NCBI RefSeq assembly: GCF_001543895.1
Contig: NZ_JYIJ01000018.1
Span: 124,001 to 188,000 of the forward strand
Reading direction: 5' to 3'
Source of the DNA: Carbonactinospora thermoautotrophica
GTDB lineage: Bacteria > Actinomycetota > Actinomycetes > Streptomycetales > Carbonactinosporaceae
Length of the DNA: 64,000 nt
A program made the translations under genes and the position numbers. Shown here one piece after another: positions 28,845-46,755 of this stretch; the stretch's first letter is position 1; the number at the start of each line of letters is the position of its first letter. Under the pieces are notes generated by a model, which was not told the DNA's origin, made no database searches, and was given only the letters and a program-made list of their open reading frames with translations.

Positions 28845-29420
<576 letters not shown>

Positions 29421-40817: not shown

Positions 40818-40857
40818 GCGTGGAGTGTGCGTGTGTGACGACACGCACACTCCACGC
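40818..40857. terminator. Long hairpin after the fused synthetase
   Basis: GCGTGGAGTGTGCGTGT pairs perfectly over 17 bp with the segment 40841-40857, with a six-base loop. It starts seven bases after the stop codon and is the probable transcript end, although no U tract follows. Confidence 0.75.
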
Positions 40858-41064: not shown

Positions 41065-41916
41065 GTGCCCCAGGGGTTGTCCATCCACATCGGACTCAAC
41101 CAGGTCGACCCGGAGGCGTACGACGGGTGGAGCGGTGACCTGGTCGCCTGTGAGCAGGACGCCAGGGACATGGCGGCGCTCGCCGGGGCAGCCGGGTTCC
41201 GGGTGGGGTCGACGCTGCTCACCAAGGACGCGACCGTCAAAAACGTCACCTCAGCGCTCCGGGACGCGGCGCGGACGCTGGAGCGCGGGGACATCCTGTT
41301 CCTCAGCTACTCCGGGCACGGCAGCCAGGTACCGGACCTCAACCAGGACGAGGCCGACCGGCGGGACGAGACGTGGGTGCTGTACGACCGGCAACTGCTC
41401 GACGACGAGCTGTTCGAGCTGTTCGGCGGTTTCGCCGCGGGCGTGCGGATCCTCATGCTGTCCGACAGCTGCCACAGCGGCACGGTCGCCCGGAAACTGC
41501 CCGATGTGCTGAGCCCGATGGAGCTGGACCGGCGTTTCGGCGTGCGCGACCCGGCCCAGGTGCGGGCGAGGATCAGGACGGTGCCGCTGGACGTCCAGGC
41601 CTGGCACTACCGGCAGCACCACGACCAGTACGCCGAGATCCAGCGGTCGACGCGGGCCGGTGACCGGCGCGAGATCGGGGCCAGCGTGCTGCTCATATCC
41701 GGCTGCCAGGACAACCAGACCTCGGCTGACGGCCCGGTCAACGGGTTGTTCACCGGCACGCTGCTCCAGGTCTGGCAGAACGGGCGGTTCCGGGGCGACT
41801 ACCGGCGGTTCCACCGGGAGATCACGGCGCTGATGCCGCCGGACCAGACCCCCAACCTGTTCCTGGCCGGCCAGGCAGACCGGGGTTTCGTCCGCCAGCG
41901 GCCGTTCACGATCTGA
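41065..41916 (+). CDS. Caspase-family (metacaspase-like) peptidase
   Basis: A 283-residue single-domain C14 peptidase. The catalytic histidine is His85 in LSYSGHGSQ and the cysteine is Cys136 in LSDSCHSGT, and QDARDMAALA near residue 31 matches the conserved helix of metacaspases. It has no signal peptide or partner domain. GTG 41065 is preceded by GAGGAGG with five bases spacing. It is isolated between the synthetase hairpin and dusB. Bacterial caspase-like proteases are linked to programmed death or defence, but the substrate here is unknown. Confidence 0.88.
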   Translation: MPQGLSIHIGLNQVDPEAYDGWSGDLVACEQDARDMAALAGAAGFRVGSTLLTKDATVKNVTSALRDAARTLERGDILFLSYSGHGSQVPDLNQDEADRRDETWVLYDRQLLDDELFELFGGFAAGVRILMLSDSCHSGTVARKLPDVLSPMELDRRFGVRDPAQVRARIRTVPLDVQAWHYRQHHDQYAEIQRSTRAGDRREIGASVLLISGCQDNQTSADGPVNGLFTGTLLQVWQNGRFRGDYRRFHREITALMPPDQTPNLFLAGQADRGFVRQRPFTI

Positions 41917-41995
41917 GCGGCGGCAGGCGGGCCTTCGGCGCGGTGCCGGCACAATAGGGAGGTTGTCCGTTCAACCGCCCCGAAGGGTACAGGTA

Positions 41996-43150
41996 GTGAC
42001 CGTCGCTGACACCAGTGCCGCGCGGCCGGGGGAGTTCCGGCCGCTGCGCGTGGGGCCGTACCAGGTGTGGCCGCCGGTCGTGCTCGCGCCGATGGCCGGC
42101 ATCACCAACGCGCCGTTCCGTGTCCTGTGCCGGGAGTACGGCGCCGGCCTGTACGTGTCCGAGATGATCACCTCGCGGGCGCTCGTCGAGCGGGACGAGA
42201 AGACCTTGAGCCTGATCCGGTTCGCCCCTGGGGAGCACCCGCGCAGCCTCCAGCTGTACGGGGTGGACCCGGCGACCGTCGCGGACGCGGTCAAGATCGT
42301 CGTGGGTGAGGGCCTGGCCGACCACGTCGACCTGAACTTTGGCTGCCCGGTGCCCAAGGTGACCCGGCGGGGCGGCGGCGCGGCGCTCCCGTACAAGCGG
42401 AACCTGCTGCGCGACATCCTGCGCGCCGCGGTGCGGGCGGCCGGGGACGTGCCGGTGACCGTGAAGATGCGCAAGGGCATCGACGAGGACCACCTGACGT
42501 ACCTGGACGCCGGCCGCATCGCCCAGGACGAGGGGGTGGCCGCGGTCGCCCTGCACGGCCGGACCGCGGCGCAGATGTACGACGGGCGGGCTGACTGGTC
42601 GGCCATCGCCCGGCTGAAGGAGGCCCTGGACATCCCGGTCCTGGGCAACGGCGACATCTGGCAGGCGTCCGACGCGATCCGCATGATGCGCCAGACCGGC
42701 TGCGACGGCGTGGTGGTCGGCCGCGGCTGCCTGGGCCGGCCCTGGCTGTTCCGCGACCTGGCGTTCGCGTTCGCGGGCCGTGCCGAGACCACCGCGCCCC
42801 GGCTGGGCGAGGTGGCGGCCACCATGCGCCGCCACGCCGAGCTGCTGGCCGCCTGGATGGGCGAGGTCCGCGCGATGCGGGACTTCCGCAAGCACGTGAG
42901 CTGGTATCTCAAGGGGTTCGTGGTCGGCAACGACCTGCGCGCCCGGATGGGCATGGTCAGCACGCTGGCCGAGCTGGACGCCCTGCTCGGGGAGTTGGAC
43001 CCGGACCAACCCTGGCCGGCCGCGGTCGCCGTCCAGCCGCGGGGCCGGCAGACCGGCTCGCGTCGGGTCCACCTGCCCGCGGGCTGGCTGGACTCCCCCG
43101 AGGTCGAGGCCCCGCCCACCGAGGCCGAACTGGCCCACTCCGGCGGGTGA
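41996..43150 (+). CDS. dusB: tRNA-dihydrouridine synthase
   Basis: A 384-residue FMN enzyme that reduces uridines in tRNA. APMAGITNAPFR lies at residues 31-42, the catalytic cysteine is Cys117 in DLNFGCPVPKVTRRGGGAAL, and VVVGRGCLGRPW is the phosphate-binding loop. A TTG at 41963 directly after TAGGGAGG would add 11 residues; GTG 41996 matches the family start less ambiguously. The C-terminal 60 residues beyond the helical domain are poorly conserved. Confidence 0.92.
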   Translation: MTVADTSAARPGEFRPLRVGPYQVWPPVVLAPMAGITNAPFRVLCREYGAGLYVSEMITSRALVERDEKTLSLIRFAPGEHPRSLQLYGVDPATVADAVKIVVGEGLADHVDLNFGCPVPKVTRRGGGAALPYKRNLLRDILRAAVRAAGDVPVTVKMRKGIDEDHLTYLDAGRIAQDEGVAAVALHGRTAAQMYDGRADWSAIARLKEALDIPVLGNGDIWQASDAIRMMRQTGCDGVVVGRGCLGRPWLFRDLAFAFAGRAETTAPRLGEVAATMRRHAELLAAWMGEVRAMRDFRKHVSWYLKGFVVGNDLRARMGMVSTLAELDALLGELDPDQPWPAAVAVQPRGRQTGSRRVHLPAGWLDSPEVEAPPTEAELAHSGG

Positions 43151-43760
43151 CCCGCCGCCTGGTCCCCGGCCGCTTGGCTACGCCGCCGGGCACCCGAGGA
43201 TCGGCGACCACGCGGGGTGTAACGCATCCGGGCCGCGCGTCGCTATACGAGCGTCCGGGTTCGCTTCCCGCGCCGTCGTTCCGGCGAGCAAGCGGACTCA
43301 CCGTCGGCCGGGCGGTTTCGCGGTCCTGCCCGGCCGGCGGTCTCCGGTCAACTGCTGCGCGACTGGGCCAGGGCGGCCCGGACCAGCGTCTTTGGAGCGT
43401 GTTGCGGGGTCCTGTGGCCAGCGCCGGCCAGCCGCACGAACGCATGTAGGTGGCGCGGGCCGCGCCCGGTCCGAAGGCAGGGTCCGCCCCACACGTACGT
43501 GGGTGGGCCGGCGGCAGGTTCTGTTCCAGGTCCGCGTCGATCGCCCGGTACCGGTTGAGCGTGGCGTCCCACCGCGCGCGGGTACGCACCCGGTCCCGGC
43601 CCCAGGAGCCGCGGAACGGAAACCGCGCGGCAGGAGCATCGGGCGGCCGGTCACGTCGACGTCGAAGGCGAGGGCGGCCACGCGTACTTCCATGATCGTC
43701 ACGGTGGACCGCGCGCGGATCGGAACGGTGCGGCGGGTCATCCCGCGGTAACCCGCCGGT
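43151..43760. other. Gap between dusB and ppdK; possible decayed gene
   Basis: About 600 bases with no intact gene. On the minus strand two partial frames read like damaged coding sequence: MEVRVAALAFDVDVTGRPML from about 43692 downward, then, in another frame, RWDATLNRYRAIDADLEQNL below about 43600. Together they suggest an old gene broken by a frameshift, but I cannot recognise a family. No RNA gene was found here. Confidence 0.35.
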
Positions 43761-43765
43761 AACCA

Positions 43766-43785
43766 CATGTGAACTTGATCACATG
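43766..43785. promoter_or_regulatory. CRP-type binding site upstream of ppdK
   Basis: CATGTGAACTTGATCACATG is a seven-base inverted repeat with a six-base spacer and contains TGTGA-N6-TCACA, the consensus of CRP/FNR-family regulators. It lies about 260 bases before ppdK, at the edge of the AT-rich leader. Control of ppdK or of a transcript into the gap by a cAMP receptor protein is plausible. Confidence 0.7.
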
Positions 43786-44043
43786 ATTCCTTCACGCCTC
43801 GAACGCAACCGGCAAGAAAAAGGCCGTCTCGCGGTTGTGAGCAATCCGGCGGGACGGGGGGATTATGGAGTCGGGGCCATTTGTCGGCCGGTTTTTCCGT
43901 CTCGTGAATTAACCTTTTGAATCCTTTAGAAAAATGGTCATTTCGACTATGAATCGTAGGTTTTAATGCTCTTGAGATGGGCAGTCCAAAGGCTTGGCTA
44001 CGCTTCCGGCTAAGTCAGGGCGACTCGTGCGGGAGGAGTTGCG
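43786..44043 (+). promoter_or_regulatory. AT-rich upstream region of ppdK
   Basis: About 260 bases far richer in A and T than the rest of the window, notably 43905-43980 (AATTAACC, TTGAATCCTTTAG, GGTTTTAATGC). It contains no gene and probably holds the promoter and a long 5' leader of ppdK. No known riboswitch was recognised. The last bases carry GGGAGGAG, the ribosome binding site. Confidence 0.5.
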
Positions 44044-46755
44044 GTGCCCAAGTACGTGTACGACTTCACCGAGGGCAACAAAGACATGAAAGATCTCCTC
44101 GGTGGCAAGGGCGCGAACCTCGCCGAGATGACCAATCTCGGCCTGCCGGTTCCTCCGGGGTTCACGATCACCACCGAGGCCTGCCGGGTCTACCTCGCGA
44201 GCGGAGCCGAGCCCCCCGAGTTGCGGGACGAGGTGACCGAGCACCTGGAGACGCTGGAGAAGAAGATGGGCAAGCGGCTCGGCCAGCCCGACAACCCGCT
44301 GCTCGTCTCCGTCCGTTCCGGGGCCAAGTTCTCCATGCCCGGCATGATGGACACCGTCCTCAACATCGGGCTCAACGACCAGTCCGTCCACGGGTTGGCG
44401 GCCCAGTCCGGCGGCGATGAGCGTTTCGCCTGGGACTCCTACCGCCGGCTCATCCAGATGTTCGGCAAGACCGTCCTCGGCGTGCCGGGCGAGCGTTTCG
44501 AGGAGGCGCTGGAGGAGGCCAAGCGCGTCAAGGGCACCGAGAGCGACCTCGGCTTGGACGCGCAGGACTTCCGCAAGCTCGTCGACACCTACAAGCACAT
44601 CGTGCGCGAGCACACCGGCCGGGAGTTCCCGCAGGATCCGCGCGAGCAGATGGACCTGGCCATCCGTGCGGTCTTCGACTCCTGGAACGGCGAGCGCGCC
44701 CGCCTGTACCGCCGGCAGGAACGTATCCCCCACGACCTCGGCACCGCCGTCAACGTGGTGGCGATGGTGTTCGGGAACATGGGCATGGACTCCGGCACCG
44801 GGGTCGCCTTCACCCGTGACCCGAGTTCTGGCCGCCAGGGCGTCTACGGCGACTACCTGCAGAACGCCCAGGGCGAGGATGTCGTCGCCGGCATCCGCAA
44901 CACCGTCCCGCTGCAGGAGCTCGAGAAGATCGACAAGAAGTCCTACGACGAGCTGCTGCGGATCATGGAGGTCTTGGAAAACCATTACCGAGACCTCTGC
45001 GACATCGAGTTCACGATCGAGCGCGGCAAACTCTGGATGCTGCAGACCCGAGTGGGCAAGCGCACCGCCGCGGCGGCCTTCTGCATCGCCACGCAGCTCG
45101 TCGACCAGGGCCTGATCGACATGGACGAGGCCCTCAAGCGGGTCAACGGCGTCCAGCTCGCCCAGCTCATGTTCCCCCGCTTCGACGAGAACGCGGTCGC
45201 GGCGGGGAAGGCCAAGCGGATCGCGCGGGGTATCGCGGCCTCGCCGGGCGCCGCGGTCGGCAAGGCCGTCTTCGACCAGGACACCGCCGTCAAGTGGTCC
45301 CAGTCGGGGGAGAAGGTCATCCTGATCCGCCGCGAGACCAACCCCGACGACCTCAACGGCATGATCGCCGCCGAGGGCATCCTCACCAGCCGCGGCGGCA
45401 AGACCTCGCACGCCGCCGTGGTCGCCCGCGGCATGGGCAAGACCTGCGTGTGCGGTGCCGAGGAACTGGACGTCGACGTCAAGCTTCGGCGGATGACCGC
45501 GCCCGGTGGCATCGTCGTCGAAGAGGGCGACGTGATCTCGATCGACGGCACCACCGGGCAGGTGTACCTGGGTGAGGTGCCGGTCGTGCCGTCGCCGGTC
45601 GTCGAGTACTTCGAGGGCCGGCTCGACCCGCAGGACGCGGGCGCGGACGAGCTGGTCCGGGCGGTGGACCGGATCATGAAGCACGCCGACGCCAAGCGCC
45701 GGCTGCGGGTGCGGGCCAACGCCGACACCCCCGAGGACTCCGCGCGGGCCCGCCGGTTCGGCGCGGAGGGCATCGGGCTGTGCCGGACCGAGCACATGTT
45801 CCTCGGCGAGCGGCGCAAGCACGTCGAGCGGCTCATCCTGGCCGACACCGAGGCCGAGCGGGAGGAGGCGCTCGCCGCGCTGCTCCCGCTGCAGCGGCAG
45901 GACTTCATCGGCATCTTCGAGGCGATGGACGGGCTGCCGGTCACGATCCGGCTGCTCGACCCGCCGCTGCACGAGTTCCTGCCCGACCTCACCGAGCTGT
46001 CGGTACGGGTCGCGGTCGCCGAGGCCCGCGGGGAAAAGAACGAGGACGACCTGCGCCTGCTCCAGGCCGTGCGCCGGCTGCACGAGCAGAACCCCATGCT
46101 CGGCCTGCGCGGCGTGCGGCTCGGCCTGGTCGTGCCCGGCCTGTTCATCATGCAGGTCCGCGCCATCGCCGAGGCCGCGGCCGAGCGCCGGAAGGCCGGC
46201 GGCGACCCGCGGGCGGAGATCATGATCCCGCTGGTCGGCGCGGTCCAGGAGCTGGAGATCATCCGCGAGGAGTCCGAACGGGTCCTCGCCGAGGTCGCGC
46301 GCGAGACCGGGATCGAGTTGGACGCGCTGATCGGCACCATGATCGAGCTGCCGCGGGCGGCCCTCACCGCGGGACAGATCGCCGAGTGCGCCCAGTTCTT
46401 CTCGTTCGGCACCAACGACCTCACCCAGACCACCTGGGGCTTCTCCCGGGACGACGTCGAGGCCGCGTTCTTCTCCACGTACCTGGAGAAGGGCATCTTC
46501 GGCGTCTCGCCGTTCGAGGCGCTGGACCGTGACGGCGTCGGCCGGTTGATCAGGATCGCCGCCGAGGAGGGCCGCGCGGCCCGGCCGGACCTCAAGCTCG
46601 GCGTCTGCGGCGAGCACGGCGGTGACCCTGAGTCCGTGCACTTCTTCCACGAGGTCGGGCTCGACTACGTGTCCTGCTCGCCGTTCCGGGTGCCGGTCGC
46701 GCGCCTGGAGGCGGGCCGGGCCGCCGTGGCGGGCGAGGGCAGCGACAGCCGGTAG
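44044..46755 (+). CDS. ppdK: Pyruvate, phosphate dikinase
   Basis: A 903-residue enzyme that interconverts pyruvate, ATP and phosphate with PEP, AMP and diphosphate. The N-terminal nucleotide-binding domain begins KYVYDFTEGNKDMKDLLGGKGANLAEM, the phosphohistidine domain carries His456 in GGKTSHAAVVARG, and the C-terminal PEP/pyruvate barrel ends with GVCGEHGGDPESV and the conserved Cys. Length is normal. GTG 44044 follows GGGAGGAGTTGCG. The upstream CRP site suggests control by carbon supply, in line with a role in PEP supply or reversal of glycolysis. Confidence 0.97.
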   Translation: MPKYVYDFTEGNKDMKDLLGGKGANLAEMTNLGLPVPPGFTITTEACRVYLASGAEPPELRDEVTEHLETLEKKMGKRLGQPDNPLLVSVRSGAKFSMPGMMDTVLNIGLNDQSVHGLAAQSGGDERFAWDSYRRLIQMFGKTVLGVPGERFEEALEEAKRVKGTESDLGLDAQDFRKLVDTYKHIVREHTGREFPQDPREQMDLAIRAVFDSWNGERARLYRRQERIPHDLGTAVNVVAMVFGNMGMDSGTGVAFTRDPSSGRQGVYGDYLQNAQGEDVVAGIRNTVPLQELEKIDKKSYDELLRIMEVLENHYRDLCDIEFTIERGKLWMLQTRVGKRTAAAAFCIATQLVDQGLIDMDEALKRVNGVQLAQLMFPRFDENAVAAGKAKRIARGIAASPGAAVGKAVFDQDTAVKWSQSGEKVILIRRETNPDDLNGMIAAEGILTSRGGKTSHAAVVARGMGKTCVCGAEELDVDVKLRRMTAPGGIVVEEGDVISIDGTTGQVYLGEVPVVPSPVVEYFEGRLDPQDAGADELVRAVDRIMKHADAKRRLRVRANADTPEDSARARRFGAEGIGLCRTEHMFLGERRKHVERLILADTEAEREEALAALLPLQRQDFIGIFEAMDGLPVTIRLLDPPLHEFLPDLTELSVRVAVAEARGEKNEDDLRLLQAVRRLHEQNPMLGLRGVRLGLVVPGLFIMQVRAIAEAAAERRKAGGDPRAEIMIPLVGAVQELEIIREESERVLAEVARETGIELDALIGTMIELPRAALTAGQIAECAQFFSFGTNDLTQTTWGFSRDDVEAAFFSTYLEKGIFGVSPFEALDRDGVGRLIRIAAEEGRAARPDLKLGVCGEHGGDPESVHFFHEVGLDYVSCSPFRVPVARLEAGRAAVAGEGSDSR

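Follow-up and report, generated by a model that had tools for sequence, protein, structure and literature searches.

A candidate Crp-type palindrome far upstream of ppdK, the gene for pyruvate phosphate dikinase, in Carbonactinospora thermoautotrophica

Introduction

Does cAMP govern the switch from pyruvate to PEP in an actinomycete whose genome carries a RuBisCO large-subunit gene? The question is raised by a palindrome of the CRP type that precedes ppdK, the gene for pyruvate phosphate dikinase (PPDK), in the stretch of 64,000 nucleotides analysed here (the window). An affirmative answer would place PPDK, which converts pyruvate to PEP, under the control of cAMP in the bearer of this RuBisCO gene, and would tie a global carbon signal to gluconeogenic entry. 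A preliminary description of the window proposed such control by cAMP or a related signal from the letters of the site and its position before ppdK.

The GlxR consensus of Corynebacterium glutamicum has a TGTGA-N6-TCACA core, and the palindrome shares this core both with GlxR sites and with those of the Rv3676 regulon of Mycobacterium tuberculosis. An excerpt of PMC4117774 reports that M. tuberculosis CRP binds a motif of this type with an enrichment that drops as mismatches rise, that its sites are concentrated at -60 to -40 and at +1 to +20, that they are equally often intragenic, and that only a subset of them acts on transcription.

Results

The palindrome, CATGTGA-N6-TCACATG, occupies positions 43766..43785 of the window and is not assigned to a strand. 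Its core, TGTGAACTTGATCACA at 43768-43783, is a perfect TGTGA-N6-TCACA, matching the CRP half-sites at 10/10 positions and adding a flanking A/T pair. The two 7-nt arms, CATGTGA (43766-43772) and TCACATG (43779-43785), are 100% complementary and enclose the spacer ACTTGA. The seven-base inverted repeat reported in the preliminary description is therefore exact, and so are two further statements made there: 260 bases separate the end of the core from the GTG start codon of ppdK at 44044, against the approximate 260 given, and the site adjoins an AT-rich leader (43786..44010, plus strand) with a GC content of 51.6% versus 71.6% for the window, and of 42% at 43870-43980.

The exact core occurs once in the window, where 0.01 occurrences are expected from shuffled sequences and 0.017 from a first-order Markov model. 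Across the 5.13-Mb genome there are six exact matches versus 1.38 expected (P for six or more, about 0.003), while the reversed pattern, used as a control, gives none versus 0.96 expected. All six perfect sites are intergenic when the open reading frames are read by eye, which supports a real class of sites. Besides the one before ppdK, they lie about 105 bases before a DUF3817 gene and 18 bases before a biotin carrier protein gene (both start codons being of our own choosing), about 70 bases before a GntR regulator gene, about 280 bases before the gene of a choice-of-anchor surface protein, near where a lactate-utilisation-like cluster ends, and within the divergent gap that precedes mshA, whose start is uncertain. 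Sites with up to one mismatch number 164 including the six perfect ones, versus 15 in the control. A genome-wide regulon made of them was rejected, and their counts do not enter the evidence: at least 100 of the 164 come from a dispersed family of hairpins that lies one mismatch from the CRP core.

This near-identical family, which mimics one-mismatch CRP sites, consists of TGTGCGTGTCGTCACA, a short loop and TGTGACGACACGCACA, with flanks that lengthen the stem. In the 5.13 Mb it is represented by 127 half-copies at one mismatch or fewer (reversed control, 0) and by at least 100 exact copies. The window holds a shortened copy at 40818-40857, by eye apparently just past a stop codon. Terminators, a transposon family or elements of the REP type are all conceivable identities for these hairpins.

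The gene that follows the palindrome, ppdK (44044..46755, plus strand), encodes a true PPDK of 903 amino acids, its product scoring 1330 bits against the TIGR01828 equivalog model (cut-off 843), and the identity given to it earlier is thereby confirmed. Its GTG codon is preceded by the ribosome-binding sequence GGGAGGAG. A core promoter is predicted at 43999..44021 (plus strand), composed of the -10 element TACGCT (43999-44004) and GTCAGGGC (44014-44021). The pattern TANNNT-N4..11-GTCAGGGC is conserved in 114 of 192 upstream regions compared, namely that of the window, 99/105 streptomycete regions, 8/8 from Catenulispora and 6/6 from further streptomycetes. The start predicted from this conserved promoter lies at about 44011 and places the centre of the palindrome near -235, unlike the sites of M. 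tuberculosis CRP, which cluster near the start. If this predicted start is right, the palindrome would be too distant to touch RNA polymerase directly or to occlude the promoter. Control of ppdK by the site is unproven because the likely promoter lies some 235 bases further downstream.

A strict promoter scan of the leader returned none. Between site and gene there are five weak promoter-like pairs, each with 7/12 consensus matches. The one closest to the site, a speculative candidate for a hypothetical upstream promoter with the -10 element GATTAT (43861..43866, plus strand), would leave the palindrome at about -97. The 12-base word GCTTGGCTACGC is present both at 43172-43183, just after dus, and at 43992-44003, at the ppdK core promoter, with no other plus-strand copy in the window; the repetition may be chance or mark a second promoter. 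A riboswitch or structured leader was rejected, as Rfam gave no match at the gathering score for 43786..44010 and the RNA fold of 43786-44060 had a z-score of -0.86. A divergent gene in the gap was likewise rejected: none of its five open reading frames has a Pfam match, the GC phase carries no consistent coding signature, and the two leftward frames found no match in the plasmid collection. The upstream neighbour, dus (41963..43150, plus strand), encodes a tRNA-dihydrouridine synthase, and a dus match falls within the fetched locus (flanks of at most 1.5 kb) in 46/133 ppdK loci.

Turning to the proteins that could read the palindrome, the search for a CRP homologue suggested in the preliminary description returned a Crp (L005) identical to M. 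tuberculosis CRP (PDB 3D0S) at 132/225 residues (59%), in which the recognition-helix stretch GASRETVNKALADF is unchanged. An arginine in the recognition helix reads the CRP half-site. L006, a further CRP/FNR-like protein, has GASLESVVKAL at this position and so is without the half-site-reading arginine. One cyclase-domain match exceeds its cut-off, and this class III cyclase gene is a putative source of cAMP. Autoregulation of Crp was rejected, as the 400 bases preceding crp hold nothing better than a site with two mismatches. Set against GTG(N)6GNCAC, the Crp consensus of S. coelicolor as quoted in an excerpt of PMC10033298, the palindrome has one mismatch, all other fixed positions agreeing on inspection.

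Conservation was scored with a weighted half-site score (perfect site, 8.8) over the last 350 bases before ppdK. From 194 upstream regions two were dropped as too short (L124, L130), leaving the 192 referred to above. The genome's own family is represented by one species in the compared set, and the same order includes the families f2, taken to be Streptomycetaceae, and f3, which includes Catenulispora. For C. thermoautotrophica a further strain, H1, has been sequenced, and an excerpt of PMC4735515 puts the mean identity of its coding sequence to that of UBT1 at 95%. The 105 streptomycete regions comprise 101 distinct sequences; one region (L039, the same gene as L119) was placed in no group, and a residual group of 49 also holds six Streptomycetaceae (L131, L136-L139, L142). 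The eight Catenulispora regions stand for seven genomes, since one gene occurs twice, as L072 (Catenulispora pinistramenti) and as L146 (genus g3), and the Catenulispora genomes G022, G026 and G028 are outside the region set.

None of the 105 streptomycete regions reaches 7.15 in these 350 bases, at an expectation of 7.8% per region; beyond this range, at -514, a perfect site is present in a single streptomycete region, L023. All eight Catenulispora regions reach 8.0 (0.3% expected per region), whereas a good palindrome is found in 0/5 regions from other f3 genera. In f19, where the -10 element (TAGAGT/TACAGT) was picked by eye, 4/18 regions reach 7.5 (1.1% expected), three of these four being of one closely similar type. 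The regions of f21 (3/3) and f39 (2/2) pass 7.15 only, and the single member of the residual group to reach 7.5 (1/49) is L202, a duplicate of the f19 gene L129. The idea that the leader is directly homologous to sequences of relatives was rejected, blastn against 134 regions giving short weak matches only.

The palindrome of Catenulispora, GGTGAGNNNNCTCACA, stands at the upstream end of a conserved block reaching as far as the promoter; the centre of the palindrome lies 64 bases before the -10 element, i.e. near -76. It precedes the same gene and belongs to the same class as the site in the window, but carries one core mismatch and lies at about -76 rather than about -235 from the same core promoter. 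As the positions differ, the two sites are analogous, not homologous, and as all seven genomes belong to one genus, the Catenulispora result counts as one evolutionary observation. The looser consensus GTG(N)6GNCAC is present in 12/111 streptomycete regions versus 6.6% expected, where its positions are scattered or very close to the gene, and streptomycetes are thus not clearly richer in it; it is also present in 6/8 Catenulispora and 9/18 f19 regions, these being raw counts given without a chance expectation.

The perfect site before mshA served as a control for these comparisons. Among 30 loci returned from 60 genomes searched, the genome's own copy alone scores 8.0 or more, and 0/29 other genomes reach this value (best, 7.2). 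As this control site is equally unconserved, absence across families says little, and conservation among orthologs was rejected as a decisive test.

Palindromes of another kind, such as AATTGGTTTATACCAATT, are seen in the ppdK leaders L185, L192, L175, L174 and L184 of f19. We take them to resemble operators of the DasR/GntR type, which suggests that a further carbon regulator acts on ppdK in f19.

Discussion

The palindrome before ppdK is likely a Crp site, probably real but ordinary, and at present it stands as a candidate: one predicted site of a known type and not a new mechanism. Binding by Crp is inferred, as are an effect on ppdK, the direction of this effect and a second promoter. We consider the chances about evenly balanced that the palindrome binds a dimeric, cAMP-dependent Crp comparable to M. 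tuberculosis CRP and to GlxR, and most likely thereby modulates ppdK. Crp-cAMP bound at the palindrome would then tune ppdK with the carbon or energy state of the cell from far upstream, either by activating a putative second promoter within the AT-rich leader or with the palindrome acting as a distal element for the conserved promoter at 43999-44004. The proposal of the preliminary description that cAMP controls ppdK accordingly stands in part: Crp, the class III cyclase and the enrichment and intergenic position of the sites speak for it, and the distance to the predicted start and the lack of conservation speak against. The same description named a distant transcription start and a site unconserved in relatives as grounds for giving the proposal up. 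Both findings weigh partly in that direction, the start being predicted some 235 bp beyond the centre of the site and the 350 bases of all 105 streptomycete regions being devoid of a comparable site, but the latter is tempered by the equally unconserved mshA control.

The distance that burdens this reading also favours a different one, in which Crp binds without effect on ppdK, the palindrome being a silent or architectural site or serving an unannotated leftward or small transcript. The observation cited above that only a subset of M. tuberculosis CRP sites acts on transcription, as given in the excerpt of PMC4117774, agrees with it. We nevertheless think it doubtful: the five open reading frames of the gap, two of them leftward, lack Pfam matches and the leftward two lack plasmid matches, the leftward promoter-like pairs amount to a single weak one, and the palindrome is the sole perfect site in 64 kb and lies within a gap that bears a promoter. 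It is quite improbable that the palindrome arose by chance, or that it is a terminator or RNA hairpin belonging to dus. Chance would yield about 1.4 perfect sites genome-wide, so that the six may include an accidental one, and as RNA the palindrome folds at -8.1 kcal/mol. However, the chance expectation for the window is only 0.017, the z-score of the fold is just -0.99, no T-run follows, the terminator scan was empty, and dus ends about 615 bases before the palindrome.

A rival to be taken seriously, though rather unlikely, is that the palindrome serves as operator for Rex, a repressor that senses NADH, which would link PPDK to the redox state. Rex is encoded in the genome (393 bits, cut-off 226), and the palindrome is one mismatch from the S. 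coelicolor Rex operator TGTGAACNNNTTCACA. It is, however, by inspection three mismatches from the 18-mer TTGTGAANNNNTTCACAA, of the form TTGTGAA-N4-TTCACAA. According to an excerpt of PMC5355995, S. avermitilis probes with three mismatches to this 18-mer were still bound, at an affinity below that of probes with one or two. The right half of the palindrome reads TGTGAT and not TGTGAA, and a repressor at about -235 would miss the predicted promoter. Six places elsewhere in the genome match better, at two mismatches or fewer. They include one before rex and a tandem pair (L217:1598-1649) preceding a likely nuo operon, where the translations read as a geranylgeranyl-reductase-like gene and then a nuoA-like one, and these sites are consistent with known Rex targets, including the Rex-nuo link.

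Returning to modulation of ppdK by Crp, a response of the gene to carbon supply has a parallel in Streptomyces. According to an excerpt of PMC7494193, S. coelicolor ppdk2 (SCO2494) is 30-fold higher on Tween than on glucose, and on this ground the PPDK gene class responds to the carbon source; SCO2494 is here assumed to be the orthologue of ppdK in the window. Because the streptomycete regions hold no comparable CRP-type site in the last 350 bases, and the looser consensus in 12/111 of them versus 6.6% expected, a different regulator is likely in that group. This weakens the need for Crp while keeping a carbon signal plausible. A bolder extension, which we regard as unlikely, is that cAMP-Crp control of the pyruvate/PEP switch arose several times independently in actinomycetes, each time with its own non-homologous sites, here a distal one. 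The lineages concerned would be the genome studied here, probably that of an autotroph, Catenulispora and a subset of f19, the spacing differing in each. Control of ppdK by cAMP, if true, would also show how readily such sites are acquired before one and the same gene across actinomycete lineages.

Two further features of the window were noted in passing. An open reading frame upstream of dus (41065-41916, plus strand) has by eye the look of a caspase-like peptidase, with the motifs SYSGHGSQ and SDSCHSG, and a c-di-AMP riboswitch (RF00379, 67.6 bits) is located at 29225-29358 on the minus strand.
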